From Rhodococcus sp. G-MC3 (lineage in GTDB: Bacteria; Actinomycetota; Actinomycetes; Mycobacteriales; Mycobacteriaceae), in assembly GCF_030063335.1 (NCBI RefSeq), contig NZ_JASISW010000009.1, positions 124,001 through 188,000 on the forward strand: 64,000 nt of DNA. Reading direction: 5' to 3'. The position numbers and the translations under genes were made by a program. How positions within the stretch are numbered: the first letter of the stretch is position 1; the number at the start of each line of letters is the position of its first letter. This document shows positions 36,356 through 54,734 of this stretch, in pieces. The notes under the pieces are model-generated. The model saw nothing but the letters and a program-made list of their open reading frames with translations, did not search any database and was not told the DNA's origin.

Positions 36356-37518
36356 AGCCCCAGGCTCCTTGCGATCAGCATGAGTTGCACTTCGGTGGTG
36401 CCTTCACCGATCTCGAGAATTTTGCTGTCGCGATAGTGTCGCGCGACGACGTATTCGTTCATGAACCCGTAACCGCCGTGAATCTGTGTGGCATCACGTG
36501 CATTGTCCATAGCTGCTTCGGAGGCAACGAGTTTGGCAATCGATGCGGCCTTCTTGAACGATTTGCCCGCCAGCATCAGCGAGGCAGCGTCATAGTACGC
36601 AGTACGCGCCGTATGTGCGCGTGCTTCCATCCTTGCAATCTTGAAAGAAATTGCCTGATTGTTGGCTATCGGCTGCCCGAAAGCTTCCCGTTCCTTCGCA
36701 TACTTGATGCTCTCGTCGACGCAACCTTGTGCAGCACCGACCGAGACTGCTGCAATGGCGATACGTCCTTCATCGAGAATATGCAGGAAGTTTGCGTATC
36801 CGCGTCCCTCCTGACCCAACATGTTCTCTTGCGGCACACGGACATCGGTGAAGCTCAGAGGATGCGTATCCGACGCATTCCATCCGACCTTGTTGTACGA
36901 GGGCCCAGCCACGAAGCCCGGTGTGTCAGTTGGAACCAGAATGGACGAAATCTGTTTGCGTCCCGATTCCTCGTCCACGCCGGTCACTGCGGTGACCGTC
37001 ACCAGTTTCGTGATGTCGGTTCCCGAATTCGTGATGAACTGCTTGCTGCCGTTGATGATCCAGTCGCCACCGTCACGCCGCGCGGTGGTCTTGGTACCGC
37101 CCGCATCGCTGCCTGCACCGGGTTCGGTCAGACCGAACGCAGCCAATGCCTTCCCACTGGTCAGCTTTGGCAGCCACTCCTGCTTCTGCGCGTCGTTTCC
37201 GAATCGGTATACCGGCATAGCTCCGAGTGAGACCCCCGCCTCCAGGGTCATCGCTACACTCTGGTCGACTTTGCCCAATTCCTCGAGTGCAAGACAGAGT
37301 GCAAAGTAATCGCCACCCATACCCCCGACCTCTTCCGGGAACGGCAGCCCGAACAGTCCCATGTCCGCCATGCCCGCGACCACCTCGTACGGGAAAGAAT
37401 GCTCCTCGTCATGCTTCGCGGAGACCGGGGCAACGACCGTGCGGGCAAAGTCTGCGACGGATCTGGCTAGCTGCTGATATTCGTCGGGCAAATTGTGTGA
37501 TGACAGGTAGTCGGTCAC
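36352..37518 (-). CDS. FadE19-like acyl-CoA dehydrogenase, probable isovaleryl-CoA dehydrogenase
   Basis: The 388-aa flavoenzyme is full length: [20 protein letters not shown] (FAD/substrate loop), [30 protein letters not shown] and the C-terminal [19 protein letters not shown] with its glutamate intact. Its position between accA1 and maoC matches fadE19. It should dehydrogenate branched short-chain acyl-CoA from leucine. The 4-bp overlaps on both sides show tight operon coupling. Confidence 0.87.
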
Positions 37519-39536
37519 GGCTGGTCCTCACCTTCGAATGTTGGAACGATTCGGGCTAGAAGTTGATCTACACGGACCTGGTCTCCCACCGACACCGCGA
37601 GTTCGACGGTGCCGTCCACTGGGGTGGTCAGTGCGTGTTCCATCTTCATGGCCTCGACCACGACGATGGCAGTACCTGCGGCGACGACATCGCCCGCCGC
37701 TGCGTTGACCGCGATCACGGAACCCGGCATCGGGCTGTTGATCTCCGCGATTCCCGAATGGGCGTCGACTTCTCGCACGCTGGGCTCAGCCACCGCACGG
37801 ACCGACCACGTTCCGTGTTCGCTCGACACCCATGTCGCACCGCCATCTGAGGCGAATCGGAGGGCTTCCCGTCTGCCATCGACAACGACGGTCACGGTGT
37901 CCCCGTCGATCTGTGCACTCAGAGTGGACGGCGAACCCTCGCCGATCTCGACCGTGGCCGAGTTCGGCGAACCAGTGATGGCGACATGCTCCGACCGCTC
38001 ACCTGCAGTCAAGCGAACCGTGTATGGGGCGGTGGCCCCGACGCGCCAGCCGGTCGGCGTCGACCAGATGTCGTCGTGAGCGCTCGCCCAAGAGGACAGC
38101 CACAGCACCGCGGCGGCGGCAATCAATGCCTGGTCCGAAACCGGCGCAGCGGTGAAGTCCTCCAGCCTCCGGTCGAGCAATCCGGTATCCAGCTTGCCTG
38201 CTCGTACGTCTTCGTCGGCAAGCAGGAACCGTGCAAATTCGATGTTGGTGACGACGCCGAGCACCGCGGTCCCGGACAGCGCGCGATCCAGCGTGCGCAG
38301 AGCAGTGGCGCGATCGGGACCATGTGCGATGACCTTGGATAACATCGGGTCGTAGTTGCTACCGACATCGGTGCCGACGGCGAGGCCCGAATCGACACGG
38401 ATTCCGGGTCCTGACGGCTCACGTAGTCCGACGACCGAACCACCGGTCGGCAGGAAACCTCGGCTCGGATCCTCGGCGTAGACCCGCGCTTCGATGGCGT
38501 GACCGGTCATTGTCACGTCATCCTGAGTGATGGCCAGTTGCTCACCTGCGGCCACCCGAACTTGCCACTCGACGAGGTCGAATCCGGTCACGAGCTCGGT
38601 GACCGGGTGTTCCACCTGCAGTCGGGTGTTCATCTCCATGAAGAAGAACTCGTCCGGGCTGTCGGCGGAGACGATGAATTCGACCGTCCCGGCACCGGCG
38701 TAGTTCACGCTGCGCGCAGTGTTGCACGCCGCCTCACCGATGCGCGCCCGGGTTGCCTCGTCGAGGAGGGGCGATGGAGCCTCCTCGATGACCTTCTGGT
38801 GGCGGCGCTGCAAGCTGCACTCTCGCTCGCCGAGGTGGATGACGTTGCCGTGCTCGTCGGCCAGGATCTGGACCTCGATGTGTCTGGGACGCAGCACGAA
38901 TCGTTCCAAGAACAAGGTGTCGTCACCGAACGAAGACGCCGCTTCACGGCGCGCGCTGGCGAGAGCGGCAGGCAGATCTTCGGTGCGCTCGACCAGACGC
39001 ATACCCTTGCCTCCGCCACCTGCTGATGGCTTCACCAGAACCGGGAAACCTACTTCTTCAGCCCCTGCAACAAGGTCGGCATCGGTGAGCCCTGGCCTGG
39101 AGATGCCGGGGACGACAGGGACTCCGAACCTCGACACCGCGTCCTTGGCTGTGATCTTGTCACCCATTACCTCGATAGCCGACGCAGGCGGACCGAGGAA
39201 TGCAATATCGGCCGACGCGCACGCGGCAGCGAATTCCGAATTTTCGGAAAGGAATCCGTAACCGGGATGGATCGCTTGCGCTCCGGTCGACTTGGCAGCT
39301 TCGATCACCTTCGAAATCGAAAGGTAACTTTCGCTGGCGCTCGCGGGACCCAAGCGGACGGCGGTGTCAGCTTCGGCAACATGTCTGGCGTTCACGTCGG
39401 CGTCGCTGTACACAGCCACCGATCGGATACCCATGCGGCGCAAAGTTCGCGCGACACGGACGGCGATTTCACCGCGGTTCGCGATCAGGACGGTATCGAT
39501 CTGTTTGGTCACGCTGTCCATTTTCTCGGTACTCAC
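37515..39536 (-). CDS. accA1: AccA1, biotin carboxylase/carrier subunit of methylcrotonyl-type carboxylase
   Basis: The 673-aa protein has an ATP-grasp biotin carboxylase ([20 protein letters not shown] at the start; [32 protein letters not shown]), a linker domain, and a C-terminal carrier domain with the biotinyl lysine in [14 protein letters not shown] 39536 overlaps the accD1 stop (GTGA); an upstream frame to 39647 lies within accD1. With AccD1 it carboxylates 3-methylcrotonyl-CoA in leucine breakdown. Confidence 0.92.
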
Positions 39537-41110
39537 ATTCTGAAAACGCCATAGGAAACCGGCGCGAGCGGCGCGTTGGCGCACGCTCCCAACGCCAGTC
39601 CGAGAACTTGCCTTGTATCCGCCGGGTCGATGATGCCGTCGTCCCACAAGCGAGCGGTCGAGTAATAGGGGCTGCCCTGGGTTTCGTACTGCTCACGGAT
39701 CGGAGCTTTGAACGACTCCTGTTCTTCGTCCGACCACGGTTTTCCTGCCGCGTCCTGCTGCTCACTACGCACGGTGGCGAGCACGGACGCTGCTTGTTCT
39801 CCTCCCATCACCGAGATACGAGCATTGGGCCACATGAACAGGAATCGCGGTGAGTAAGCACGACCACACATCGAATAGTTGCCTGCACCGTAGGAACCGC
39901 CGATGACAACAGTCAATTTCGGGACCCTGGCACATGCCACCGCAGTGACCATCTTCGCGCCGTGTTTGGCGATGCCGCCGGCCTCGTAGTCACGGCCGAC
40001 CATGAAACCGGAAAGATTCTGCAGAAACACAAGCGGAATGCTCCGCTTGTCGCACAGTTCGATGAAATGCGCGCCCTTCATTGCAGATTCGGAAAAGAGC
40101 ACACCATTGTTGGCAATAATTCCCACGGGATGTCCATGGATATGTGCAAAGCCCGTAACGAGGGTCTTGCCGTACTCGGCCTTGAATTCATCGAATTCGC
40201 CCGCGTCGACCACCCTGGTTATCACCTCGCGCACGTCGTAGGGGGTTCGCGGATCGGTGGGAACGAGATCGTAGATTTCTGACTGGTCTGCGATCGGGTC
40301 CCTGGTGGGCAGGACATCCCAGGGTCTCGGTGTCCGCGGCCCCAGCGACCCGACGATCTTGCGAACGCGCTGCAAAGCATCCCTGTCGTCCTCCGCGAGA
40401 TGATCGGTCACACCGGACACCTTCGAGTGGAGATCTCCGCCACCGAGTTCCTCGGCAGTGACGATCTCACCCGTAGCCGCCTTCACCAACGGCGGACCAC
40501 CGAGGAAAATTGTGCCCTGATTCTTGACGATGATGGCCTCGTCGCTCATCGCAGGAACATAAGCGCCGCCTGCGGTGCACGAGCCCATCACAGCAGCGAT
40601 CTGCGCAATTCCTTTGGCGCTCAACGTCGCCTGATTGTAGAAGATGCGCCCGAAGTGGTCGCGGTCCGGAAAAACCTCATCCTGTCGCGGTAGGAACGCC
40701 CCACCGGAGTCGACGAGATAGATGCACGGCAACGTGTTCTGGAGTGCGATCTCCTGTGCTCGCAGATGCTTCTTGACGGTCATCGGGTAGTAGGTTCCAC
40801 CTTTGACCGTTGCATCGTTCGCAACGATGACGCATTCGCGTCCCGAGACGCGGCCGATTCCGGCAATGACGCCTGCGCCAGGGCACTCGTCGTCGTACAA
40901 GCCGTTGGCGGCGAGCGGCGCGATCTCGAGGAACGGACTGCCCTGGTCCAGCAGTTCGTTCACGCGATCGCGAGGCAGCAACTTACCTCTGGCGACATGA
41001 CGCTCCCGCGATTTTTCACTGCCACCCAAAGCAGCCAAAGCGAGTCGCTCGGCAAGCTGGCTGGTCAGAAGCTCGTGCTCTGCCCTGTTCGCAGCGGTAT
41101 CGATCGCCAT
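39533..41110 (-). CDS. accD1: AccD1, carboxyltransferase subunit of methylcrotonyl-type carboxylase
   Basis: The 525-aa crotonase-superfamily carboxyltransferase has [40 protein letters not shown] (first oxyanion region) and [20 protein letters not shown] (second). The [11 protein letters not shown] stretch is typical of methylcrotonyl-CoA carboxylase beta chains. ATG 41110 is used. It is first in its operon, divergent from the TetR gene with operator-like repeats between. Confidence 0.92.
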
Positions 41111-41147
41111 GTTGTGCGCCCTCGGTCTCGTAGTTCGAAAACCAGAA

Positions 41148-41169
41148 TCAGTTAACAAGAAGTAACTGA
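41148..41169. promoter_or_regulatory. TetR operator candidate between accD1 and the BkaR-like gene
   Basis: TCAGTTA and TAACTGA are perfect 7-bp arms around 8 bases (22 bp in all), in an AT-rich 119-bp divergent promoter. A second palindrome TAGTAAACTA lies at 41175-41184. One dimer site here could control both the carboxylase operon and the regulator. Confidence 0.6.
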
Positions 41170-41229
41170 AACTATAGTAAACTACGATTAACCGAGTTGT
41201 CCAACGTCGATTCCAAAAATGGGGGGGTC

Positions 41230-41838
41230 ATGGCCGCACAAGAACCTGAAGCAAGGCCGCTGACCTTGCGGGATCAACGCAAGGCGGAACGACGCCATCA
41301 ACTTCTCACCGCGGCGGCCTCACTGTTTGCAGAACGAGGTTTTGCATCGGTGCGATTGGAAGACCTGGGTGCTGCAGTGGGGATCAGTGGTCCTGCTGTC
41401 TACCGACACTTCCCCAACAAGGAGGCCGTGTTGGTCGAACTGCTTGTGGGGATCTCGCAGTTTCTCCTCGACGGAGGCAAAAAAGTTGTCACACAACACA
41501 CTGCGAGCGACGTTGCCCTGGACCAGTTGATCGAGTTTCACCTCGACTTCGCGTTCGACTCCCCCGCCTACATCCGAATACAGGACCGAGATCTGGAAAC
41601 ACTCCCTGACACAGCGCGGCGGAAGGTTCGACGGATGCAGCGTGAATACGTCGAACTGTGGGTGACCACCCTGTGCGCCACCGATGCATCCCTGGGCGAG
41701 AACGACGCGAGAACCACGGCACATGCGGTATTCGGACTCATCAACTCCACCCCGTACAGCGCGGGCAAGACTCCTTCCAGAAGTACCCGTTCGATATTGC
41801 GCACCATGACGATCGGCGCCCTCGGGTTGCCCGCATGA
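41230..41838 (+). CDS. TetR-family regulator, BkaR-like, of the leucine operon
   Basis: The 202-aa TetR protein has HQLLTAAASLFAERGFASVR, LEDLGAAVGISGPAVYRHF and PNKEAVLVELLV as HTH, then a ligand domain. It is divergent from accD1. In mycobacteria the regulator at this locus (Rv2506, BkaR) represses the branched-chain keto acid genes, so this assignment follows from position and family. ATG 41230 follows a run of G residues that includes a ribosome site. Confidence 0.83.
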   Translation: MAAQEPEARPLTLRDQRKAERRHQLLTAAASLFAERGFASVRLEDLGAAVGISGPAVYRHFPNKEAVLVELLVGISQFLLDGGKKVVTQHTASDVALDQLIEFHLDFAFDSPAYIRIQDRDLETLPDTARRKVRRMQREYVELWVTTLCATDASLGENDARTTAHAVFGLINSTPYSAGKTPSRSTRSILRTMTIGALGLPA

Positions 41839-42372
41839 AGCAGGAACATCGAGGGCTCGCTGCATGCCGAGACTGCACTTGTCCAACCATTTTCCGCGAC
41901 AGCACGGTGTAGTACCGAGCGGTGAACAAGACCACCAGGCCTCATCCCAGATCGCGCTTCGAGCAATATATAGCACGCGTATCCTGAAGTGCTGCAATCG
42001 ATTCCTGACAGTCCAATCTGGACCCTCACTGTATTCGAAGGAGGCTCGTCACCAGATGTCTCTCCATTGACTTCGTGAGAACACTGCGCGGCGCAGAGGT
42101 GCTACGCCGAGCATCGCCGCCGCTACCGATGGCCACCGTCGTTGTTCAGGTGCGGCACGTACAACGCAATTGGGGGCTCGGCTGACCGCACAGCTATTCA
42201 TCGCTCTCCAGTCGATTCGAGAAACGCGATGGCAATCGTGACGTCCGATCCGTCGATCGGCTTCGCCCCGCTGCCGTGAAGGTGCGGCACAGCGATCGTA
42301 CGGTTGCAGTGTCGCTCTTGATTCCGACCGATGGTGTACAGGACGGTACCTCGACATGACTGGAGGCTGGAA
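41839..42372. other. 534-bp stretch before the lipid cassette
   Basis: No gene of normal size is supported. It holds a mini-frame with a strong ribosome site (GAAGGAGG at 42037-42044, ATG 42056, stop 42068: Met-Ser-Leu-His). This could be a leader peptide or a remnant. The promoter of the desaturase cassette must be within it, but I cannot place it. Confidence 0.45.
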
Positions 42373-43341
42373 TTGACCGAACTATCAGACGATCGGCCAA
42401 TCATTTCACGGCGCAAGACAATCAGTAATTCCTATCTTCACCGGCTTCAGCGTCGTCACTTCATACTCTTCGATATCCTCCCGATCGTCGGGACTCTGGC
42501 CGCTGTCGGGTTCCTCACCGTCCAGCCTTTCGGTGTCACCGAACTCGGGCTCTTCTTCTCCATGTGGCTGGTCACCGGACTCGGTATCACCGCCGGCTAC
42601 CACCGGTTGTTCACCCATCGCAGCTACAAGGCCGCTCCGTGGGTGTGCGCGGTACTCGCCATCGCCGGGTCCATGGCCGGCCAAGGCCCAGTCGTTTCCT
42701 GGGTTGCGCTGCATCGCCGGCACCACGAGTGCAGTGACCGCGAAGGTGATCCGCACTCGCCGAACTTGGAGGGTTCAGGTGTCCGCGGACGGATTCGCGG
42801 TCTCGCCCATTCGCACTTTCTCTGGATGCGAAGGCATGACTACCCGAACGTTGTTCACTACGCACCCGATCTGCTGAGAAACGCTCTTGTCATGAGGATC
42901 TCACGCCGCTACCACGTGTGGGTGATACTGGGATTGGTGCTTCCAGCGGCCATCGGCGGCCTTGTTGGTTGGAGTTGGCAAGGAGCCGTGAGCGGGCTTC
43001 TGTGGGGTGGTTTCGTCCGAATGTTCGTCCTCGAACATATCGTCTGGGCGATCAATTCCTTCTTGCACATGTTTGGAACGCGTCCCTACGAGTCGCGCGA
43101 ACACAGCCGCAACGCCGGAATTTTGGCCCTTGTGACGTTCGGCGAGTCATGGCATAACAACCACCATGCGTTCCCGGATTCCGCATCGTTCGGAATCGAT
43201 TGGTATCGCTTCGACCCTGGGTACTGGTTGATCAAATTCTTGTCCATTGTCGGCGCGGTTCACGATGTGGGAATTCCGACCACCGAGCGCCGGCACTCCA
43301 AGCGTGTACGCCACCACACAGTCTCAGGAGCAAGGTCATGA
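42373..43341 (+). CDS. Membrane fatty acid desaturase (stearoyl-CoA desaturase/DesA3 family)
   Basis: About 322 aa. Three histidine boxes of a di-iron membrane desaturase are intact: HRLFTH (box 1), HRRHH (box 2) and HNNHH (box 3, in ESWHNNHHAFP). Four hydrophobic segments flank them. The start is uncertain: TTG 42373 after GGAGGCTGGAA is preferred, GTG 42331 is possible. It is coupled by ATGA to an acyl carrier protein, so the substrate is probably ACP-bound acyl, as for the JamB-type enzymes of alkyne cassettes. A delta-9 acyl-CoA desaturase is the alternative. Confidence 0.88.
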   Translation: MTELSDDRPIISRRKTISNSYLHRLQRRHFILFDILPIVGTLAAVGFLTVQPFGVTELGLFFSMWLVTGLGITAGYHRLFTHRSYKAAPWVCAVLAIAGSMAGQGPVVSWVALHRRHHECSDREGDPHSPNLEGSGVRGRIRGLAHSHFLWMRRHDYPNVVHYAPDLLRNALVMRISRRYHVWVILGLVLPAAIGGLVGWSWQGAVSGLLWGGFVRMFVLEHIVWAINSFLHMFGTRPYESREHSRNAGILALVTFGESWHNNHHAFPDSASFGIDWYRFDPGYWLIKFLSIVGAVHDVGIPTTERRHSKRVRHHTVSGARS

Positions 43342-43589
43342 CCGACATACTCACGCAGCACTCCATCGCGCAATGGTGCCAAGATTACGTCGCCGGCCTG
43401 CTGGAAGTGCCCGCGGGCACGATCGCGCTCGACGCTACGTTCGACCGTCTGGGCATCGACTCGGCCCACGCCGTCGCACTGCTCATAGAGATCGAGTCTC
43501 GTTACGGCGTAGATCTCCCGCCCGAGGCATTGTTCGAGAATCCGACCCTGGATGCGGTCGCCCAGTACTTGTACGAGCATTCGAGCTGA
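43338..43589 (+). CDS. Stand-alone acyl carrier protein
   Basis: The 83-aa protein has the ACP helix II motif with the phosphopantetheine serine: FDRLGIDSAHAVALLIEIE. The rest (YGVDLPPEALFENPTLDAVA) is like polyketide/NRPS-type discrete carriers, not the housekeeping AcpP. ATG 43338 overlaps the desaturase stop; the methyltransferase begins one base after its own stop. It is the presumed scaffold on which the fatty chain is activated, desaturated and modified. Confidence 0.9.
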   Translation: MTDILTQHSIAQWCQDYVAGLLEVPAGTIALDATFDRLGIDSAHAVALLIEIESRYGVDLPPEALFENPTLDAVAQYLYEHSS

Positions 43590-43590
43590 C

Positions 43591-44445
43591 ATGCAGACCG
43601 CGGAAGCCATCAGGTATCACTACGATGTCGGCAACGACTTCTACCGGCTCTGGCTCGACGGGTCATTGTCTTATTCGTGCGCTTTCCAAGAGCCCGGTGA
43701 CTCGCTCGAGCAGGCCCAAGACCGCAAACTGCGATGGCATCTCGACGCCGTCGATGCAGACGAGGCGCGCAGTCTCTTGGACATCGGATGCGGATGGGGC
43801 GGACTGCTCGAGCGCGCATCACTTGGCCGCGGTGTCGATCGTTGCGTCGGTCTCACGCTGAGTGACGAACAGGCGCAACATGTTCGGAGCCGCGCAATTC
43901 CCGGAGTCGAGGTGTTTACCAAGAACTGGAGGGACTACCAGCCACCGGAGCACGTCGACGCCATCGTCTCGATAGGCGCATTCGAGCACTTCGCCCGGCC
44001 CACCGATTCACCTACCGACAAGATTGCGATCTATCGCGAGTTTTTCACACGCTGCGCCGGATGGCTCACCGACGGTGGAGTCCTGTCGCTGCAGACCATC
44101 GCGTACGCCAACATGTCACCGTCGGACGCGAACGGCTTCATCGCCAACGACATATTTCCAGACGCCGATCTGCCGACTCTCGCCGAGATCGCGACGGCCA
44201 CCGACGAAATCTTCGAGATCGTCACATTACGCAACGACCGGGCCGACTACGCCTGGACCTGCGAGGAATGGGCAGCCAGACTTCGCGCTCAGCGGCCGCA
44301 GGCGGTCGACCTGGTCGGCGATGATGTCGTGCAACGATACGAGCGGTATCTGAAGATGTCGGCACTCGGATTCAGAATGGGCAAGATCGGACTGCTGCGA
44401 ATCGTGTTGCGTCCATACGTCGGCCATTTCGGAGGTCGACGATGA
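43591..44445 (+). CDS. SAM-dependent methyltransferase, cyclopropane-fatty-acid-synthase family
   Basis: The 284-aa enzyme has the CFA-synthase/mycolate-cyclopropanase pattern: AIRYHYDVGNDFYRLWLDGS, LSYSCAF, the SAM site LLDIGCGWGGLLERA, and IVSIGAFEHFARP for the bicarbonate/active-site helix. It also has YREFFTRCAGWLTDGGVLSL. It could cyclopropanate, methylate or methylenate a double bond made by the desaturase. The ACP beside it suggests an ACP-bound chain rather than phospholipid. Its stop overlaps the P450 start. Confidence 0.87.
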   Translation: MQTAEAIRYHYDVGNDFYRLWLDGSLSYSCAFQEPGDSLEQAQDRKLRWHLDAVDADEARSLLDIGCGWGGLLERASLGRGVDRCVGLTLSDEQAQHVRSRAIPGVEVFTKNWRDYQPPEHVDAIVSIGAFEHFARPTDSPTDKIAIYREFFTRCAGWLTDGGVLSLQTIAYANMSPSDANGFIANDIFPDADLPTLAEIATATDEIFEIVTLRNDRADYAWTCEEWAARLRAQRPQAVDLVGDDVVQRYERYLKMSALGFRMGKIGLLRIVLRPYVGHFGGRR

Positions 44446-45683
44446 CACTCACCGGCCGAGCAGACACCGCCCCGGCCCATGTCCGATTCAACCCATTCGC
44501 CTCGGCCTTTCGAAGGAATCCATACCCCGACTACGAGCGGCTGCGCACACTCTCTCCGGTGCACAGAACGCTCGGGATGTGGGTGCTCACCCGGCACTCC
44601 GACGTTCGACACGTATTGCGCGACAGCATGTTCAGCGCGGCGTTGATCCCCGAGCTGGTCTCGGCGCACACGGCTCGGTACGGACGGGAAGACCCCGTTG
44701 CCGTCCGTCGAACAGGCACCACATCACTGGTTTTCACTGACGATCCCGAACACGCAAGGTTGCGTGGCTTGGCGAATCAGATCTTCTCGACCCGCGCCAT
44801 TTCCTCGTTGCACGAGCACGTACGCGTCACCGCGGAGACTCTGCTTCGGAATGCAGTGCACACCTGTGCATCCGTCGACGTGATCGCGGACTACGCAGCG
44901 CACCTTCCCATCACGGTGATCTGTGAATGGATGAACCTACCCGCCTCGATGCGGCCGGATATCGGTCGCTGGACGCACGACATACGCTTCCTACTCGAGC
45001 CGACATTGATGACGGCGGCCGACCTCGACCGCGTCCACGCCGTCGTCGACGCGTTCACGGTGGCCTTGCAGCACGTGATCGACGCGCGCCGAGACCACCC
45101 CGGCACAGATTTGATCAGCCGAATGCTCACTGCAACCACTGCTTCCGACGAGTTGAGTGTCGACGAGATCGTCGTGCTGTGCATCATGTGTTTCGTCGCG
45201 GGCAACGAGACGACGACCGCGCTCATCGGAAATACATCGCTGGCGCTGCTGTCGCGTCCCGACCTGGTGACAGCACTACGCACCGGTACGCTGCCCGTAC
45301 GCGCCCTGATCGACGAATCAGTACGCTACGAGAGTCCGCTGCAAATGACCAAGCGCGTCGCGACAGCCGACACCGAGATCGACGGACACGTCGTGCACGC
45401 AGGAGATCAACTGCTCCTCTGCCTTGGTGCCGCAAATCGTGACCCCGACGTGTTCGACCGGCCCGACGATTTCGATCCCGCCCGCACGGGCGCGAAGCAC
45501 GTCGGCTTCGGACATGGGATGCATCGATGCCTCGGTGCGCTTCTCGCGCACATGCAGGCCGAGATCGCCGTCGAGACGCTCTTCACGCAGTACGATCCGC
45601 GAAGGATCGACGCGGCCGCACTGCAGTGGCAGACCCGGAGCTCCATCGTGCGCGGACTTGCCCACTTGCCGGTGACGCTGTGA
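44442..45683 (+). CDS. Cytochrome P450
   Basis: The 413-aa soluble bacterial P450 has the I-helix oxygen site FVAGNETTTALIG, the E-x-x-R of IDESVRYESP and the haem loop FGHGMHRCLGALLAHMQ with its cysteine ligand. It needs a ferredoxin and reductase; the reductase-ferredoxin fusion at 48030-48971 is the closest candidate. It is coupled by ATGA to the methyltransferase and by GTGA to the thioesterase, so it likely oxidises the cassette's acyl chain. Confidence 0.92.
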   Translation: MTLTGRADTAPAHVRFNPFASAFRRNPYPDYERLRTLSPVHRTLGMWVLTRHSDVRHVLRDSMFSAALIPELVSAHTARYGREDPVAVRRTGTTSLVFTDDPEHARLRGLANQIFSTRAISSLHEHVRVTAETLLRNAVHTCASVDVIADYAAHLPITVICEWMNLPASMRPDIGRWTHDIRFLLEPTLMTAADLDRVHAVVDAFTVALQHVIDARRDHPGTDLISRMLTATTASDELSVDEIVVLCIMCFVAGNETTTALIGNTSLALLSRPDLVTALRTGTLPVRALIDESVRYESPLQMTKRVATADTEIDGHVVHAGDQLLLCLGAANRDPDVFDRPDDFDPARTGAKHVGFGHGMHRCLGALLAHMQAEIAVETLFTQYDPRRIDAAALQWQTRSSIVRGLAHLPVTL

Positions 45684-46417
45684 GTTCACGGCAGTGGTTC
45701 GCTCCTGCGGCCGTCATCGATGGCGTAACGACGACGACAGCAGTGCCCCTCCTGCTCGTCCCCCATGCCGGAGCAGGAGCGTCGTCGTTTGCACGGTGGA
45801 CGTTCCCGGCGTGGCTCACAGCGCATTCCGTCCAACTCCCAGGACGAGAAGGCGCCGCAGCAGAACCACTACTGCGCGAGATCCACTCGATCGTGGCCGA
45901 GCTCGCGGCGCAGGTCGAACGTTCACTGGACAATCCCGTTGCCCTGTACGGCCACAGCATGGGAGCCCTTGTCGCATTCGAGTTGGCTCGGGCACTGACC
46001 GACACCGGCAGTCCGCCGCGCCATCTGTTCGTCTCGGGCCGGCGCGCACCGCATCTGCCGGCGAGCAGGCGGACTGTCCACCGACTGCCGGAAACTCAGT
46101 TCGTCGACGCCCTGGAGGAAATGGGCGGAACACCGCGCGCCACGCAGCGCAGCGCGTCGTTGCTGCGCTACACCGTCAAGGTCAGTCGGGCGGATCTCGA
46201 GGTGTGCGAGACATATTCGTATCGGACCCACGGCGGGCTCCCATGTCCGATCACGGGCTTCCACGCTCAGAACGATCCCGTTGTCGACCCCGACGAGATC
46301 ACCGCCTGGAGTCGCCATACGAATGCTGCCTTCGCTACCCACTCGTTCACGGGAGGGCACTTCTTCCACCAGAATCATCGCAACGCGATCGCTGCGATCA
46401 TCGGTGCGGCTCTGTGA
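45680..46417 (+). CDS. Type II thioesterase (alpha/beta hydrolase)
   Basis: The 245-aa thioesterase has the start LLLVPHAGAGASSFARWTFP, the nucleophile serine in YGHSMGALVAFELAR, and a C-terminal HSFTGGHFFHQNH with the catalytic histidine. Such enzymes accompany PKS/NRPS systems and free acyl chains from carrier proteins. GTG 45680 overlaps the P450 stop. Here it probably releases the finished chain or clears misloaded ACP. Confidence 0.9.
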   Translation: MSSRQWFAPAAVIDGVTTTTAVPLLLVPHAGAGASSFARWTFPAWLTAHSVQLPGREGAAAEPLLREIHSIVAELAAQVERSLDNPVALYGHSMGALVAFELARALTDTGSPPRHLFVSGRRAPHLPASRRTVHRLPETQFVDALEEMGGTPRATQRSASLLRYTVKVSRADLEVCETYSYRTHGGLPCPITGFHAQNDPVVDPDEITAWSRHTNAAFATHSFTGGHFFHQNHRNAIAAIIGAAL

Positions 46418-48033
46418 CCGCCCTGCTGACCGACATCTTGCAGTCGAGAGCGCACGACACCCCAGGCGCCCGGGCGTACGTGTTTCTCGACGCGGCCGGT
46501 GACGAAGACGAGATCCTCACCTACGAACGACTGCACACGCGCGCAGTAGACGTTGCAAGTGCACTGCGCACCCAGTGCGGGCCAGGAGACCGAGCTCTGT
46601 TGCTGTTCGGACCCGGTCTCGACTTCATCGTCGCGTATTTCGGCTGTCTGTATGCGGGCGTGATCGCCGTTCCGGTGAACCCGCCTCGGCCGGGTAGACC
46701 GCACGATGGCATCCACAACGTCGTACTGGACTGCGCGCCGTCGGTCGTCTTGTCCGACGCGCCCACGCGATCCGCTACCGAAGATGAATTGGTCGCGGTG
46801 ACAGGCGGGCTCGTGTGGATGACAGTCGACGAGACGTCGGAAGGCGACCACGTGGAATTCGCCCCACCGGGGCAGGAATCGATTGCGTTCCTGCAATACA
46901 CGTCCGGATCCACGTCACGTCCGAAAGGAGTTTGCGTCACCCACCGCAATCTCGTCGCCAACCAGCGCATGATTGCGGCCGCGTTCGGGCACGATCGATA
47001 CTCCACGTTCGTCGGGTGGGCGCCGCTCTTCCACGATCAGGGCCTGATCGGTAACGTTCTCCAACCGCTGTACCTCGGCACCACCAGCATCTTGATGTCG
47101 CCGTGGACGTTCATCCGCAGGCCACTGCTGTGGCCTCTCACAGTGTCGAAGTATCGGGCTCACACGAGCGGAGGACCCAACTTCGCGTTCGACGCATGTG
47201 TGACACACGCCGAACGGACCCCGATACCGGCCGACCTCGACCTCGTCTCGTGGCAGGTGGCCTTCAACGGCGCAGAACCGATCCGCGCAGCCACGATCGA
47301 GCGCTTCGTCTCTACGTTCTCGCCCTTCGGTTTTCGCCCGTCGGCGATGTACCCGTGCTACGGGTTGGCCGAAGCGACGTTGTTCGTGGCAGGGAGCGTA
47401 AAGGGCCGCGGCCCCCGAACCATGCATGTCGACGCCGACGAACTCACTCGCGGACGGTTGACCCCCGCGACCGGCACCCGATCGCACACGGTCGTCGGGT
47501 CGGGCGTGCCCGCCACCGATGGATTCGTTCGAATAGCGGATCCGAACTCAGCCGACTCGCTCGCGAACAGCATGATCGGCGAGATACGTGTTTCCGGTCC
47601 TCACGTGAGCCCCGGTTACTGGGGCCGTAGCGAGATCGTCAAAGAACTGCGTACCGGCGATCTCGGCGCGGTCGTCGAGGGTGAACTGTTCGTGGTCGGC
47701 CGCATCAAAGACGTCATCATCGTCCGGGGGAAGAACTACTACCCGCACGACATCGAGAACACCGTGCAAATCCACCTCAAGGCGCCGAAGTCCCTGACCT
47801 GCGCGGCATTCGCGATTGCCGACTCCCACGGAATCGACACGTTGGTGATCGTTGCGGAGACGCCTGCAGATCATGACGTGAATCCGTCCGCGGTGCGGGA
47901 GGCGGTGACTCGCGAGCACGGTCTCACGGTGGGTGAGCTGGTGACAACGGACAAGCGACTGCAGAAGACCAGCAGCGGCAAGTTGATGCGAGCCAACGCC
48001 AAGGCCCGCTACCTGCGGGGCGAGTTCGTCTAG
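46414..48033 (+). CDS. Fatty acyl-AMP ligase (FAAL)
   Basis: The 539-aa ANL enzyme is of the FAAL branch: FLQYTSGSTSRPKGV, VGWAPLFHDQGLIGNVLQPL, SPWTFIRRPLLWPLTVSKYR, SGGPNFAFDACV, CYGLAEATL and the C-terminal lysine region KTSSGKLMRANAKARY. FAALs make acyl-adenylates from free fatty acids and load them on carrier proteins, here presumably the ACP at 43338. GTG 46414 overlaps the thioesterase stop; the frame is open far upstream, but that part is antisense to sense of the previous gene. It ends the cassette. Confidence 0.92.
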   Translation: MTALLTDILQSRAHDTPGARAYVFLDAAGDEDEILTYERLHTRAVDVASALRTQCGPGDRALLLFGPGLDFIVAYFGCLYAGVIAVPVNPPRPGRPHDGIHNVVLDCAPSVVLSDAPTRSATEDELVAVTGGLVWMTVDETSEGDHVEFAPPGQESIAFLQYTSGSTSRPKGVCVTHRNLVANQRMIAAAFGHDRYSTFVGWAPLFHDQGLIGNVLQPLYLGTTSILMSPWTFIRRPLLWPLTVSKYRAHTSGGPNFAFDACVTHAERTPIPADLDLVSWQVAFNGAEPIRAATIERFVSTFSPFGFRPSAMYPCYGLAEATLFVAGSVKGRGPRTMHVDADELTRGRLTPATGTRSHTVVGSGVPATDGFVRIADPNSADSLANSMIGEIRVSGPHVSPGYWGRSEIVKELRTGDLGAVVEGELFVVGRIKDVIIVRGKNYYPHDIENTVQIHLKAPKSLTCAAFAIADSHGIDTLVIVAETPADHDVNPSAVREAVTREHGLTVGELVTTDKRLQKTSSGKLMRANAKARYLRGEFV

Positions 48034-48971
48034 AGATCCAGCTCGAGGACCGGTGACACAGCGGCCCTCGAGACGCACACCATCATCGATTCGCTCCGCT
48101 CACGTTCGTCGTCGCTCAGAACGGAGTCGCGGTGAATCGGGCTCCCGCTCAGCACCTTCGTCTCGCAACTCGAGCAGGTCCCTTCTCGGCAGGAGGTAAC
48201 TACCGAGACGCCTGCGCGTTCGAGTGCGTCCACCAGCGCCTGGTCCGGGCCGACTCGGATGGTCTCGCCCGTGCTGACGATACGTACATCGAATGCTGAG
48301 TCCGGCTCCTCGACGACGATGGGACGCGGTGCGAACCGTTCCACGTGCAGGGCACCCATACCGTGTTGTTCTGCCGCCGCGAGCAACGGCTCCGGTCCGC
48401 AGCAGTAGACGCCGGTCTCGGCACCGGCGGTCCGAGCGATGTCGGCGAGCGGCAGCAGCCCTGCTTCGTCCTGCGGGAGTATCGCAACTTTGTCTCCGTG
48501 AGCGGCGAGTTCGTCGACGAACGCCATGGAGGCGCGGGTGCGCCCCCCGTAGTACAGCTGCCACGGCGCACCGGCGCACTCGGCGGCGGCGATCATCGGG
48601 AGTATCGGGGTGATGCCGATCCCACCCGCTACGAACACGTACGCCGAAGCGTCGACGAGAGGAAAATTGTTGCGCGGCAACGAGACTTGAACGGTGCATC
48701 CGATCTGTGCACGGTCGTGGAGGTAGGCCGACCCACCGCGCCCGTTCGGCTCGCGCAGCACCCCGACGCGCCACCGAGTCCTCTCCGTTGTCGAGCCACA
48801 CAGGGAGTACTGCCGGACGTCATCACCGCTGACAGCGATGTCCACGTGCGCGCCTGCATTCCACCCGGGCAGGTCACCGTCGTCGGGTAACGCGAGTTCG
48901 AGTGCGATCACGTCCGCAGCGACATCCGAACGTCCGACGACGACCACTGTGAACATACCGGCTTCCAACAC
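48030..48971 (-). CDS. Reductase-ferredoxin fusion (phthalate dioxygenase reductase type)
   Basis: The 313-aa protein has a flavin domain (RQYSLCG for flavin; VAGGIGITPILPM for NAD(P)H; CCGPEPLL), then a C-terminal plant-type [2Fe-2S] domain with cysteines in CREGTCSSCETKV and the last in MVCVSRA. It moves electrons from NAD(P)H to an oxygenase. It converges on the FAAL gene with a 4-bp overlap of the stops, so it is the natural partner of the P450. GTG 48971 follows GAAGGAG; ATG 48956 is an alternative. Confidence 0.88.
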   Translation of the reverse strand: MLEAGMFTVVVVGRSDVAADVIALELALPDDGDLPGWNAGAHVDIAVSGDDVRQYSLCGSTTERTRWRVGVLREPNGRGGSAYLHDRAQIGCTVQVSLPRNNFPLVDASAYVFVAGGIGITPILPMIAAAECAGAPWQLYYGGRTRASMAFVDELAAHGDKVAILPQDEAGLLPLADIARTAGAETGVYCCGPEPLLAAAEQHGMGALHVERFAPRPIVVEEPDSAFDVRIVSTGETIRVGPDQALVDALERAGVSVVTSCREGTCSSCETKVLSGSPIHRDSVLSDDERERSESMMVCVSRAAVSPVLELDL

Positions 48972-49119
48972 TCTTGCTCCTTCGGTCGTGGACGTCTCGC
49001 ACACCCCAGGCTGGGCGAACACCGTGACCCTCGCACGCCGTGGGCCCCATCGATGTCGTGCGATCGGCGTCGCCTATCGCGGCCCCACTCGCACGACCCG
49101 CCGCCCGACACTTGACGCT

Positions 49120-50325
49120 ATGACAACCGTCGAACGAGACATCGATCGCATCCAAAGATTCGATACCCCCGAGACAGTCGACCTGCTGGTCGCCAGGACC
49201 GCGGCCTTCGTGCAGGAACACGTTCTGCCCGTCGAGCGAGAGGTCATCGTCGAGGGCCGCATAGTCGACGACGAGATGCGTCTCGAATTACAGCGTAAGG
49301 CGAAAGACGCCGGTGTCTTCGGACCCCTGTCGGATACCGAGTACGGCGGCCTGCAGCTGTCCACGCGTGCGCAGGCCCGCGTCCTCGAAGCGTCGGGCGG
49401 GAGCCTATTGGGGCCGTTGTCAGTCAATGCGTCGGCGCCCGACGACGGCAATATCCACTTGTTGAAGCACGCCGGCACACCAGATCAGCACGCACGCTAT
49501 TTGGCCCCTCTGGCGTCCGGAGACGTCCGCTCGTCTATCGCGATGACCGAACCCGCCCCCGGGACCGGCTCTGATCCGTCCATGTTGCGGACCACGGCGC
49601 GCCGCTCCGACTCGGGCTGGGTGATCGACGGTGCCAAACACTTCACCACGGGAGCCGACGGGGCGACCTTCACCATCGTCATGGCAGTCACCCCGAACGG
49701 TCCCACGATGTTCATGGTCGACCAGAACAACCCGGGTCTGCACGTCGGACGGCGCATGCCGACGCTCGACCACAGCATTCCGGGTGGGCACTGCGAGATG
49801 CAGTTCACCGAATGCGAGGTCCCCGCCGACGCCGTGCTCGGCGAAGAGGGGAAAGGCATGCTCTACGCCGGGGTCCGGCTCGCACCGTCCCGCTTGGTCT
49901 TTTGCATGAACTGGCTCGGCCTGGCCGTGCGTGCCCACCAAATGGCCGCCCGCCACATCGTCGGTCGCTCATCGTTCGGCATCCCCATCGCCGACCACGG
50001 AATGGCACAGGCCCATGTCGCCGACAGCGAGATCGACATAGAAGCGTCACGCGGTCTAATCCGCCGAGCTGCGGAGATCATCGACACCGAGGGTGCCGAT
50101 TCCTCCAGCGCCCGCCACAGCGCCTCCATCGCAAAGACTTTCGTCTCGGAGGCAGTGTGGCGAATTCTCGATCGGTCGGTCCAGCTCCACGGGGGCCTCG
50201 GTGTCTGCGAGGACCACCTCGTCGCCCGGTTCCTCGTCGAGGCACGCGCGTTCCGCATCTACGAGGGCCCGTCGGAGGTCCTGCGGTGGTCCATAGCCCG
50301 CCGAGTGCTGCGTCCCTTCCGCTGA
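49120..50325 (+). CDS. Acyl-CoA dehydrogenase in the lipid cluster
   Basis: The 401-aa acyl-CoA dehydrogenase has AMTEPAPGTGSDPSMLRTTA, DGAKHFTTGADG, and ends AFRIYEGPSEVLRWSIARRV with the glutamate in place. Active-site loops are normal; the middle (SSFGIPIADHGMAQAHVADS) differs from housekeeping FadE proteins. ATG 49120 is used; a long upstream frame runs into the divergent reductase gene. It may introduce a double bond in the pathway or belong to degradation of its product. Confidence 0.85.
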   Translation: MTTVERDIDRIQRFDTPETVDLLVARTAAFVQEHVLPVEREVIVEGRIVDDEMRLELQRKAKDAGVFGPLSDTEYGGLQLSTRAQARVLEASGGSLLGPLSVNASAPDDGNIHLLKHAGTPDQHARYLAPLASGDVRSSIAMTEPAPGTGSDPSMLRTTARRSDSGWVIDGAKHFTTGADGATFTIVMAVTPNGPTMFMVDQNNPGLHVGRRMPTLDHSIPGGHCEMQFTECEVPADAVLGEEGKGMLYAGVRLAPSRLVFCMNWLGLAVRAHQMAARHIVGRSSFGIPIADHGMAQAHVADSEIDIEASRGLIRRAAEIIDTEGADSSSARHSASIAKTFVSEAVWRILDRSVQLHGGLGVCEDHLVARFLVEARAFRIYEGPSEVLRWSIARRVLRPFR

Positions 50326-50360
50326 CCCACGTCTTCACACACAACAGAACGGAGCTCATC

Positions 50361-50909
50361 GTGTCCACTTCGACTTCCACGTCCGCCACAGGCCATCGGG
50401 TCGGACTTTTCGCTGCAGCGTTCGGTGACATCGACGGCGGTGCACCCGATTACGAGCACCTTCGATCGGTGTCCAACTCCCTCGTGCCGTTCGGAAAACA
50501 CGTAGGGACCATTGTCACCGAGATCGGTCCCGATCGAGCCGTCGTCGAGATTCCGCGCGAACCTCACGTGGTCAACCACATGAACACCGTCCACGCGGGC
50601 GCGCTGTTCACCGCAGCAGATATCGCTGGAGCTGCAGCGTTCGTCGGTGCCGCCGCAACGAGGCTGTACGTCGTCGAGAGTCTCGTCGTGCGCTCGGCGA
50701 GCTCGACGTATCGCAAGCCCGCCTCGGGAAATATCCGTGCGATCGCAACCGTTGACGAGCGGGAGATGCGAGCCATTCTCGCCGCCGAGTCCGACGCACG
50801 CTTCGAGCTCACCGGCAAAGCGCTGATGGTGAACGACGACGACGTCACCGTCGCCAAGTTCACCTTCGACTACGTGTGCGACGTCGTCGTCTCCGACGGG
50901 CAGGTCTAA
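50361..50909 (+). CDS. Hotdog-fold thioesterase-like protein (DUF4442/YiiD C-terminal type)
   Basis: The 182-aa protein has the hotdog motif VVNHMNTVHAGALFTAADIA and VESLVVRSASSTYRKPASGN. That matches DUF4442/PaaI-like thioesterases acting on acyl-CoA or acyl-ACP. GTG 50361 follows ACGGAGC. It lies 35 bp after the dehydrogenase and 3 bp before the hydrolase, in one operon. Substrate unknown. Confidence 0.78.
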   Translation: MSTSTSTSATGHRVGLFAAAFGDIDGGAPDYEHLRSVSNSLVPFGKHVGTIVTEIGPDRAVVEIPREPHVVNHMNTVHAGALFTAADIAGAAAFVGAAATRLYVVESLVVRSASSTYRKPASGNIRAIATVDEREMRAILAAESDARFELTGKALMVNDDDVTVAKFTFDYVCDVVVSDGQV

Positions 50910-50912
50910 CCG

Positions 50913-51854
50913 ATGTCCACAACCTCGGGAACACCGAGCGGCCCCCAGGCTGCCGAGAAGGAGACGCCAGCCCGGCGCCCCTCCGAATACTCATTGCTCG
51001 AATCTCTGCCCGTCGAGGTCGCGGGCGGAATCACGTTCACGGTTCGATCGGTGCCGGCGGCAGACCCGTCGGCTCCGGTGGTTCTCATCCTCCCGGCCAT
51101 GGTCATGAAGGCCAAGCACTACATGCACCTCGCCAAAGCCCTGAATGCACAGGGAGTGTCGGTCGCCCTGTGCGATCTTCGCGGACAAGGCGAAAGCACA
51201 CCCGCACTGCTGGATCAGCCGAACTTCGGCTACCGCGAGATGATCGAGATCGATCTCCCCGCCGTGACCGCCGCAGTGCGAGAGCGTTTCCCCGACAGTG
51301 AGCTTCACCTGTTCGGTCACAGCCTCGGGGGTCAGCTCTCGTTGCTCTACGCGGCGGCAAACCCGGGCGCGGTCGAGAGTGTCACGGTGATCGGCACCGG
51401 GACGGTCTACTGGCGCGCCTTCGGTATCCGACGGTGGTTTGAGGCGCTGCGCGACATCCAGTGGATCGGCTTGGTCGCACGGGTCAAAGGACACTGGCCG
51501 GGCGGTGTCCTGATTCCGGGGGCCATGGCCGGGCGCGTCATGGTCGATTGGTCGCGGCACTCCCTGACCAGTCACTACCGACCCACCGGAACGTCCCGTG
51601 ATTACGACCGCTTGCTTGCGGAGATGACGACTCGGGTCCTGGCCATCTCGCTCGCCGACGACCATCTGGGTCCCAAATCGAATGTCGACTTCCTGGAATC
51701 GAAGATGAAGGCGGCCGCGGTGTCCCGCTGGCACATCGACGGTGATTCCCCGGTCACCCACCGCGATCACTTCGAGTGGGTCAAGGATTCACCGGTGATC
51801 GCTCGGGTCGCGACCGACTGGATTCGGACGGGTGTCGCGACCCCCGCTTCCTGA
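50913..51854 (+). CDS. Alpha/beta hydrolase
   Basis: The 313-aa hydrolase has the oxyanion and cap region LILPAMVMKAKHYMHLAKAL, CDLRGQGES, the nucleophile elbow LFGHSLGGQLSLLYAA, the acid ADDHLGP and the histidine in THRDHFEWVK. It resembles predicted serine aminopeptidase/esterase-like hydrolases. It is last of the three-gene unit after the lipid cassette, with 4 bp to the convergent exporter gene. Role unknown; ester release or detoxification is possible. Confidence 0.82.
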   Translation: MSTTSGTPSGPQAAEKETPARRPSEYSLLESLPVEVAGGITFTVRSVPAADPSAPVVLILPAMVMKAKHYMHLAKALNAQGVSVALCDLRGQGESTPALLDQPNFGYREMIEIDLPAVTAAVRERFPDSELHLFGHSLGGQLSLLYAAANPGAVESVTVIGTGTVYWRAFGIRRWFEALRDIQWIGLVARVKGHWPGGVLIPGAMAGRVMVDWSRHSLTSHYRPTGTSRDYDRLLAEMTTRVLAISLADDHLGPKSNVDFLESKMKAAAVSRWHIDGDSPVTHRDHFEWVKDSPVIARVATDWIRTGVATPAS

Positions 51855-51858
51855 TCTC

Positions 51859-53265
51859 TCATTCGCGTGGTCCTGACGGCCGCAGCACGACGGCCGTCAG
51901 GACCGCACCCGCCAGGGCTCCCACCGCAGCGATGACGAATGTCGTCGACATCGACGTGACCTCGTCCCCCACGCGCGGCGACGCGATGGCCGCAGCAGCA
52001 ACGCCGAACACGGCGCCGAACTGCCGGAACGTATTCATTGCGCCTGATGCGGCACCCACCGACTCCGCCGGAACCGCGTTCATCATCGCGGCAATCGCGA
52101 CGACACCGCCGGAGAGCGGTATGCCGATCCCGAGCAAGGCGAGTGCGACTCCGTAGACGGCGAACGGTGCGCCCGCCGGGATCGACAACAGACCCAGCAT
52201 CCCGGCGCAGATCGAGCCGAGCCCGAGCAACATCGTCGGACGGGTACCGAGCCGACCGACGATATACGAGGCACTCAGCGATCCGATTCCCATTGCGCCG
52301 AAGAGCGGGAGGAATTGCAGGCCCGTCGCGATCGGACTGAGGCCTTGCTCCCCCTGCAGGTACAGAGTGAGGATGAACAGCACGCCGTAGAGGCCGAACA
52401 ATCCGAGGAAATTGACTGCACATGCAGCGAAGACTTCGGGGATGCGGAGCAGTCCCGGCGGCAACATCGGCAGCTCGGTGCGGCGCTCCCACAAGACGAA
52501 CGCCGCCGCAGAGAGAGCCGCAACCCCGAAGGTCACCAGCACGAACGGATCCGCCCAGCCGCGATGCGGGCCTTCGACCACCGCGAGTGTGGCGCCGACA
52601 CCTGCCGCGACGAAGAAGGCCTGGCCGAGGACGTCGACACCACCGCTACGCGATTTTTCCCTGGGACGCAGAGAAATCCGCAGTGCACCCCACGCGAGCA
52701 CCGCGATGGGAACATTGATCCAGAACAACGACTGCCATCCCGCCGACGACACCAGCACCCCACCGACCAGCGGTCCGAGTGCAAGGGCAACCCCCGCGGT
52801 GCCACCCCACAGGCCGATAGCCTTCGCCCGGGCCGTCGGGTCGGGAAAGTGTGTGGTCAACGCCGCGACGGACAAGGGAACGATGACCGCCGCGCACACG
52901 CCCTGCAAGGCGCGACCCGTGATCAGCACGCTCATGGTCGGCGCGAGGGCGCAGACGATCGATGCGAGCCCGAACGCACCGGTGCCACCGAGCAACATGC
53001 GCCGGGTACCGAATCGGTCGCCGAGCAGCCCGCCCGACAACAGCAGGCACGCGAATGCCAATGTGTACGCGTCCAGAATCCATTGCGCCGCAGTGTCTCC
53101 GCCATCCAGGCGGTCTGCGATGGACGGAATCGCTACCGGAGCGATGCTGGTGTCGAGGTAGACGATGAACGTCACCGCGCAGATGCCCCACAGGAGGGTG
53201 CGCCGACGAAGTTCAGGCTGGCTCGCGGATGTATCGGTTCGGGAGATATCACTATCCGAAGTCAC
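51859..53265 (-). CDS. MFS exporter, 14-TM DHA2 (EmrB/QacA) family
   Basis: The 468-aa multi-spanning transporter has the start TLLWGICAVTFIVYLDTSIA, motif GGLLGDRFGTRRMLLGG between TM2 and TM3, and about fourteen hydrophobic segments. DHA2 members export lipophilic drugs and small products. It sits beside the lipid cluster and converges on its last gene with 4 bp between stops. It may export the product, but it is transcribed separately, so this is inference. Confidence 0.88.
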   Translation of the reverse strand: MTSDSDISRTDTSASQPELRRRTLLWGICAVTFIVYLDTSIAPVAIPSIADRLDGGDTAAQWILDAYTLAFACLLLSGGLLGDRFGTRRMLLGGTGAFGLASIVCALAPTMSVLITGRALQGVCAAVIVPLSVAALTTHFPDPTARAKAIGLWGGTAGVALALGPLVGGVLVSSAGWQSLFWINVPIAVLAWGALRISLRPREKSRSGGVDVLGQAFFVAAGVGATLAVVEGPHRGWADPFVLVTFGVAALSAAAFVLWERRTELPMLPPGLLRIPEVFAACAVNFLGLFGLYGVLFILTLYLQGEQGLSPIATGLQFLPLFGAMGIGSLSASYIVGRLGTRPTMLLGLGSICAGMLGLLSIPAGAPFAVYGVALALLGIGIPLSGGVVAIAAMMNAVPAESVGAASGAMNTFRQFGAVFGVAAAAIASPRVGDEVTSMSTTFVIAAVGALAGAVLTAVVLRPSGPRE

Positions 53266-53544
53266 TCGAACATCGTATGCTCGAAATCCGAAATACTCTG
53301 ATGCACCGTCTCTTTCGATGGGAAGCGATAGTCAACGCCTATTCTGGTTGGCCAGGACCGCAGGAATCCTGAATATCTCATGGTTCGCGTGACGTCGATC
53401 GCACGCGTCCAAAATCCTATCGGCCCAGGTCCGCGCACCGACATCGCTCTCGGCGCACCACTACGGCAACCGGTGTTCACCCTGGGTACACAGTGGCGTG
53501 TTGGCATGTTCCTACTGATCACGGGCACGACAAGGAGATACACG

Positions 53545-54690: not shown

Positions 54691-54734
54691 ACCACAATTT
54701 CTCCTTTCCCGACCGAACCTAACCAGGAGCTTCA

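Follow-up and report, generated by a model that had tools for sequence, protein, structure and literature searches.

A six-gene Rhodococcus cassette predicted to tailor a fatty acid on a dedicated acyl carrier protein

Gene content and protein features of the cassette

The window analysed here, a 64,000-nucleotide stretch of Rhodococcus sp. G-MC3 (contig NZ_JASISW010000009.1, positions 124,001 to 188,000), contains six consecutive plus-strand genes encoding a membrane fatty-acid desaturase, a discrete acyl carrier protein (ACP), a CMAS/CFA-type methyltransferase (CMT), a cytochrome P450, a type II thioesterase (TE) and a fatty acyl-AMP ligase (FAAL) (Table 1). The desaturase and ACP genes overlap by 4 bp, the ACP and CMT genes are separated by 1 bp, and three further 4-bp overlaps join the remaining genes through to the FAAL gene. 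All six frames are open and the expected domain exceeds the Pfam cut-off in each, so that the coordinates and domains bear out the gene set and junctions described in the initial annotation of this DNA. Gene calls and Pfam revealed no ketosynthase, nonribosomal peptide synthetase (NRPS) or acyltransferase among the six genes, and the earlier claim to that effect holds within the cassette. The start of the range first assigned to it (42373..48971) was correct, but the FAAL gene stops at 48033 and the remainder belongs to a convergent reductase gene; the six genes and the reductase gene fully occupy 42373-49022. The cassette measures 5.7 kb, in a source genome of 5.6 Mb and 102 contigs.

Table 1 Genes of the cassette and the adjoining reductase gene, with positions in the window
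Feature	Position	Strand	Remarks
Membrane di-iron fatty-acid desaturase (SCD-like), 322 aa	42373..43341	+	TTG start; PF00487, E 4e-24
Discrete ACP, 83 aa	43338..43589	+	PF00550, E 4e-17
CMT, CMAS/CFA-type S-adenosylmethionine (SAM)-dependent methyltransferase, 284 aa	43591..44445	+	Gln variant; PF02353, E 2e-63
Cytochrome P450, 413 aa	44442..45683	+	PF00067
TE, type II alpha/beta thioesterase, 245 aa	45680..46417	+	GTG start; PF00975, E 1.5e-40
FAAL, 539 aa	46414..48033	+	GTG start; PF00501
FAD/2Fe-2S reductase, outside the cassette	48030..49022	-	PF00111, PF00175, PF00970

Two start codons are available to the desaturase gene, TTG at 42373 and ATG at 42331, and the former is backed by an ATG at the aligned codon in two copies from the same genus (G010 and G018). 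The GC content of the cassette genes (58.6-64.9%) resembles that of the window (62.2%), which rules out a recent foreign origin by composition. No sigma-70-like promoter site was found in 41800-49200, where shuffled sequence averages only 1.2, and an Rfam scan returned no matches.

The desaturase contains three His boxes, and SCD1 was its only solved relative at E <= 0.001, both by sequence (two distinct sequences) and by fold, where SCD1 structures (four chains) matched the AlphaFold model with TM 0.66-0.69. The mean pLDDT of the model was 75.3, with values of about 62, partly below 50, in the block of an insertion described below; the model confirms the predicted SCD fold, and the insertion could not be placed in it. 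The G-x-D-S motif containing the phosphopantetheine serine is conserved in the ACP alignment, the CMT scored 214.4 bits against PF02353 (cut-off 27), and both the heme-binding motif of the P450 (FGHGMHRCLG) and the nucleophile motif of the TE (GHSMGA) are intact. The second-best solved relative of the P450 is P450BioI (CYP107H1; entry 3ejb), a C-C cleaving enzyme of the biotin pathway which we take to have been solved in complex with an acyl carrier protein.

At 539 aa the window FAAL is shorter than most of the 19 other copies (522-672 aa, with 15 of these at 547-590 aa), and the shortfall lies mostly in the loop preceding the second domain. FAAL models lead its NCBIfam ranking (best 25 of 95 models), and the closest solved structures are 7r7e and 3kxw, whose entries bear other names and which we take to be FAALs, followed by FadD23 and FadD32. 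By its leading models and structures the ligase therefore appears closer in sequence to FAALs than to CoA ligases. Features by which FAALs reject CoA are among those described in PMC8460268.

Recurrence, co-divergence and loss of the cassette

When one genome per species was scanned with the FAAL as query, 42 loci were obtained, at 14 of which the core order desaturase-ACP-CMT-P450-FAAL was complete and on the same strand. These 14 loci belong to Frankia kin (L001-L003, L009, L011, L020), Streptomyces (L004), R. jostii (L006), Nocardia (L007, L008), Actinomycetospora (L012) and Pseudomonas (L013-L015). Among the remaining 28, one is without the CMT (L005), one is cut by a contig end (L010) and 26 are without the core, including L021, where the contig ends in the FAAL gene, and L023, which is considered below. 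Five further complete copies were found on plasmids of Pseudonocardia alni, Thalassospira marina and R. opacus and in G010 and G248, giving 19 complete copies besides that of the window; the copy in G018 stops inside the P450 gene at a contig end. With 19 other loci carrying the complete core, this arrangement is not due to chance. The comparison of gene order across genera, set beforehand as a check, thus found the same order in Rhodococcus and Nocardia, and the cassette can be regarded as a real, conserved and mobile element that extends from Frankia and further actinobacteria to two groups within the Pseudomonadota. It had also been put forward as the best candidate in this DNA for a new product; no described product was met among the literature listed, but the cassette is recurrent and mobile and is not special to this genome.

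Distribution within the genus is sporadic, the CMT having been detected at E <= 1e-60 in three of its 37 genomes. In samples of the order and the phylum, where the best 8 or 6 candidates were scored per genome and the counts are lower bounds, the CMT search gave matches in at least 5 of 298 genomes (two cassettes, in the source genome and G248, and three CMT-FAAL pairs) and in at least 3 of 396 genomes (a cassette in the source genome only), respectively. Relatives of the desaturase were abundant in a large protein set: at E <= 1e-20 it matched 6,909 of the 8,000 candidates scored, and the best 120 all shared 68% identity or more with it. Plasmid searches covered the best 40 of 64 records, of which 12 were opened, and the best 30 of 42, of which five were opened, together with one more opened record; in a phage collection, three CFA matches were found at 32%.

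Pairwise distances of the desaturase, ACP, CMT, P450 and FAAL were correlated across 19 rows (the window and 18 complete copies, with G248 left out). Correlations were high for all ten gene pairs (rho 0.86-0.95, to which host relatedness contributes), and none of 999 permutations reached the observed value for any pair, indicating that the cassette moves as a unit whose genes diverge in step. The compared genes in G010 and G018 are 82-90% identical to those of the window. At L023, in a closely related Rhodococcus, the FAAL gene survives only as a damaged 3' piece with a broken frame (L023:8809-9521), the sole part of the cassette left in 18.5 kb of sequence; from this remnant onward, 8.5 kb including the reductase gene matches the window at 92% identity, and the fetched DNA upstream of the remnant gave no match to the window. 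The loss of the cassette at this locus, with the flanking reductase gene kept, indicates that the cassette is dispensable.

A thioesterase, of the alpha/beta type, the hotdog type or both, was present at all 19 complete loci. The alpha/beta TE occurs at 11 of them (degenerate in R. opacus), and at the other eight there is no TE between the P450 and FAAL genes and a hotdog gene lies downstream of the FAAL gene. The alpha/beta thioesterase is thus replaceable. The window has the alpha/beta TE only, as a search of the full 64 kb at E <= 0.01 gave no relative of the hotdog TE. In the TE of the R. opacus plasmid (L050:12165-12890), GHSRAA replaces GHSMGA and a hotdog gene is also present, which looks like decay after replacement.

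Methyltransferase and desaturase subfamilies, other gene contexts and flanking genes

Cys30, Glu132 and Tyr253 are kept in the window CMT, and at the fourth active-site position probed Gln168 replaces the His of ordinary CMAS/CFA enzymes. Gln was found at this site in 29 of 29 rows of the subfamily (22 rows from the window, cassettes and FAAL-linked loci, L055-L059 and two Sphingobium rows) and in none of 32 others, all of which have His; the latter comprise 29 ordinary CMAS/CFA enzymes, taken from 30 loci of a much longer match list after one misaligned row (L066) was dropped, and three later rows. The Gln rows form a clade with an SH-aLRT support of 99. A FAAL lies within about 5 kb of 27 of the 29 Gln-type CMTs, the two exceptions being G018, where the desaturase and ACP are present and the contig ends before the FAAL, and G672. 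The window FAAL, ACP, desaturase, P450 and TE gave no match at the 30 ordinary CMAS/CFA loci (2.5-3.8 kb each). The His replaced by Gln168 presumably binds the bicarbonate base; Gln could still bind bicarbonate, or could favour methyl or exomethylene products over ring formation. The bicarbonate base itself is described in PMC10491745.

In 26 rows of the desaturase alignment, 10 extra residues follow the motif DPHSP (DLHSP in Thalassospira); 21 of these rows are from cassettes, two from polyyne clusters and one each from Polaromonas, Tistrella and Nonomuraea. The insertion is absent from six other desaturase rows and two SCD1 sequences; the ordinary desaturases L095-L124 were left out of this comparison, having produced no match to that of the window. 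In the desaturase tree, which was built without JamB, the cassette copies of Actinobacteria, Pseudomonas and Thalassospira fall in one clade (97/99), and the nearest outsiders, several of them on long branches, come mostly from other FAAL/ACP clusters including polyyne clusters. Two polyyne desaturases of Streptomyces ADI95-16 are 44% and 40% identical to the window desaturase, compared with 34-37% for five ordinary desaturases; the third polyyne desaturase was excluded because no match to it was obtained.

Related CMTs were also found in other gene contexts. In Polaromonas the gene run comprises a FAAL, an insertion sequence element, a desaturase, an ACP, the CMT, a second desaturase and polyketide synthase (PKS) genes, and in Tistrella a desaturase, an ACP, the CMT, a FAAL, an acyl-CoA dehydrogenase and a hydratase-like gene. 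In three genomes of the family to which the source genome belongs (L126-L128), a Gln-type CMT is followed by a FAAL, with a second FAAL in L128; in L126, the one of the three examined for it, a type I PKS with ketosynthase, acyltransferase, dehydratase, enoylreductase and ketoreductase domains lies about 3 kb from the pair. In G672 (L125:7762-11342), a Gln-type CMT with a PF03405 desaturase directly upstream of it also adjoins an ACP (PF00550) and a ketosynthase (PF00109), and no FAAL was found in 16.5 kb. We take PF03405 to be the soluble acyl-ACP desaturase family, in which case the Gln-type CMT and ACP would be paired with two unrelated kinds of desaturase. A 3-kb gene annotated as AMP-binding lies about 3.4 kb downstream of the Thalassospira cassette.

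On the Sphingobium plasmids pSRL2 and pTomMM15a (L130:6878-10758 and L131:6872-10633), a LuxI-family autoinducer synthase (PF00765 above the cut-off in both) shares a gene run with an ACP, a Gln-type CMT and a FAAL, with a P450 nearby. A search of the plasmid set with the synthase gave five matches, these two and three others at 27-32%; in Sphingobium B90A, a protein has a weak LuxR-type match below the cut-off. An acyl-homoserine lactone whose chain is methylated or carries a cyclopropane is a possible product of the Sphingobium run. What these contexts would share is the modification of a carrier-bound chain with a one-carbon group, the enzyme for off-loading changing from one context to another.

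The reductase gene converges on the FAAL gene with a 4-bp overlap. Its retention at L023, from which the cassette has been lost, rules it out as a cassette member and groups it with the adjacent genes of the chromosome. A homologue at 50% identity lies at L012:17498-18490, 7 kb from the Actinomycetospora cassette, and may reflect chance or a weak association. Beyond the reductase gene lies a DUF4442 thioesterase-like gene unrelated to the hotdog TE of other loci. Just upstream of the cassette, the region 36352-41838 encodes an acyl-CoA dehydrogenase, a methylcrotonyl-CoA-type biotin carboxylase, a carboxyl transferase and a TetR protein, resembling an operon for leucine breakdown. Other PF00487 matches of the genome sit on other contigs.

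Proposed function and relation to known systems

We consider it probable, at roughly 70%, that the six genes constitute a self-contained operon for tailoring a pre-made fatty acid on a dedicated ACP, with a free, oxygenated, methylated or cyclopropanated acid as the product. The FAAL would adenylate a free fatty acid and transfer the acyl group to the ACP, the SCD-like desaturase would introduce a double bond, and the Gln-type CMT would add a SAM-derived one-carbon group at this double bond, giving a methyl branch, an exomethylene group or a cyclopropane; known CMAS chemistry places desaturation before one-carbon addition. The P450 would hydroxylate or epoxidise the chain with redox partners encoded elsewhere, the place of this step being a guess, and the thioesterase would free the acid (or a lactone). 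We infer each reaction, their order, the role of the ACP as carrier throughout and the free-acid product from the sequences of the genes and their relatives. The logic of activation, loading, desaturation, methylation, oxidation and release, which had been proposed from the gene set, agrees with the genes present, with their co-divergence and with the occurrence of a thioesterase at 19 of 19 complete loci; the last of these speaks for hydrolytic release rather than transfer. The TE could also be an editor, as type II thioesterases are known to be. In further support of the tailoring function, Gln-type CMTs mostly lie near a FAAL or an ACP, and the P450 is related to P450BioI.

Several observations weigh against this tailoring function or blur the assignments on which it depends. 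Mycobacterium simulans (L005) carries the set minus the CMT, indicating that the one-carbon step is not universal. The link between the desaturase insertion and an ACP is strong but not clean, since the insertion is also seen in the Nonomuraea desaturase (L052:8911-9954), around which 9 kb gave no FAAL match, and is missing from the second, ACP-linked desaturase of Polaromonas. A His row (L132) falls within the Gln clade on a long branch, and Ser replaces Cys30 in the Thalassospira and both Sphingobium rows, so that the active site varies within the Gln group. Mycolic CMAS enzymes, which bear His, also act on carrier-bound chains, and Gln is therefore best treated as a mark of the subfamily and not as proof of an ACP substrate. 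For the ligase, the best 25 of 95 NCBIfam models all score under their curated cut-offs (e.g. NF004509, 383.9 of 775 bits), and a long-chain CoA-ligase model (NF005850, 290 bits) ranks amid the FAAL models. The cassette operon itself is without a ferredoxin, a transporter or a regulator.

If the desaturase were a JamB-like desaturase/acetylenase, the cassette would yield an acetylenic fatty acid and represent a relative of jamABC with extra tailoring. The FAAL, desaturase and ACP trio is as in jamABC, and the two ADI95-16 polyyne desaturases share the insertion and are closer to that of the window than ordinary ones are; such an alkyne pathway is nevertheless improbable, as the substrate of a CMAS enzyme must be an alkene, the desaturases of the cassettes group in a clade apart in the tree without JamB, and the available portion of PMC8406139 names Actinobacteria only within the polyyne clade. 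The ACP could instead hand its acyl chain to a PKS, an NRPS or an acyltransferase encoded elsewhere, as a starter unit, with the TE acting only as an editor, a role in which type II thioesterases are familiar. The proximity of the CMT and FAAL to PKS genes in Polaromonas and L126, of the CMT to an ACP and a ketosynthase in G672, and of the AMP-binding-annotated gene to the Thalassospira cassette is consistent with such a supply; the absence of assembly-line genes among the ten neighbours examined (36352-56111) and the presence of a thioesterase at every complete locus, at eight of them of the hotdog type only, make this improbable as well.

Less probable still is a modification of membrane lipids of the furan-fatty-acid kind, in which the methylated, oxygenated chain would end in phospholipid. 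Three predicted chemistries of the cassette match those described for UfaM, UfaD and UfaO (PMC7380195), by which a single chain undergoes methylation of the CFA type, desaturation and oxygenation; the furan pathway as presented there, however, uses phospholipid chains, and a dedicated FAAL, ACP and thioesterase would be without a role. It is likewise very unlikely that the window copy, though intact, is unexpressed and represents a transient element that moved horizontally and is heading to decay. Its scarcity in the genus, the loss of all but a damaged FAAL end at L023 and the lack of sigma-70-like sites, few as these are in shuffled sequence, would fit such a state, whereas the six open frames, the intact motifs, the identity of the compared genes to those of G010 and G018 and the base composition argue against it.

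Among the known systems closest to the proposed tailoring operon is jamABC of the jamaicamide type, in which a FAAL, a membrane desaturase and a discrete ACP adjoin and tailoring takes place on the ACP (described in parts of PMC8406139 and PMC11837247). The cassette adds a CMT, a P450 and a thioesterase, and has no PKS or NRPS among its ten neighbours. In the bacterial polyyne cassette (caryoynencin, cepacin, collimonin, ergoyne, protegencin), PMC8406139 describes seven genes including three desaturases, a thioesterase and usually a rubredoxin, with the exception of ten actinobacterial sets in which a P450 replaces the thioesterase and rubredoxin and two Mycobacteriaceae sets without rubredoxin. 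The six-gene cassette resembles these in its side-by-side FAAL, desaturase and ACP genes and in its thioesterase (PF00975), and the plasmid-borne polyyne cluster of Streptomyces ADI95-16 also has a P450, with no CMAS enzyme in 18.8 kb; the cassette has one desaturase and one CMAS enzyme. Membership of the polyyne family was rejected because two further desaturases and a rubredoxin are missing in 42373-49022. The initial annotation knew of no described pathway with this gene set, and no description was met here, but it had left unnamed the close jamABC and polyyne logic set out in PMC8406139. Neither the gene set nor its product is described among the titles and abstracts listed, a coverage that mostly excludes subscription journals, and the words desaturase and cyclopropane are absent from the main text of a survey of Rhodococcus clusters (PMC5550956). 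As far as searched, the cassette is thus an undescribed variation of FAAL-ACP tailoring logic and not a new category.

A broader role can be imagined in which FAAL, ACP and the Gln-type CMT form a mobile acyl-tailoring module for diffusible signals, either a fatty-acid signal freed by the TE, as in the cassette, or a LuxI-coupled acyl-homoserine lactone whose methylated or cyclopropanated chain would be supplied by a dedicated ACP instead of fatty-acid synthesis; this suggestion is speculative and rather unlikely. If the proposed tailoring function is true, the cassette would allow a compact gene set to produce oxygenated, methyl-branched or cyclopropane fatty acids on a discrete ACP without any machinery for elongation, and one-carbon chemistry would join the ACP-tailoring logic of alkynes and polyynes. 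At six genes and 5.7 kb, the cassette is small enough for transfer to a laboratory host and direct test.

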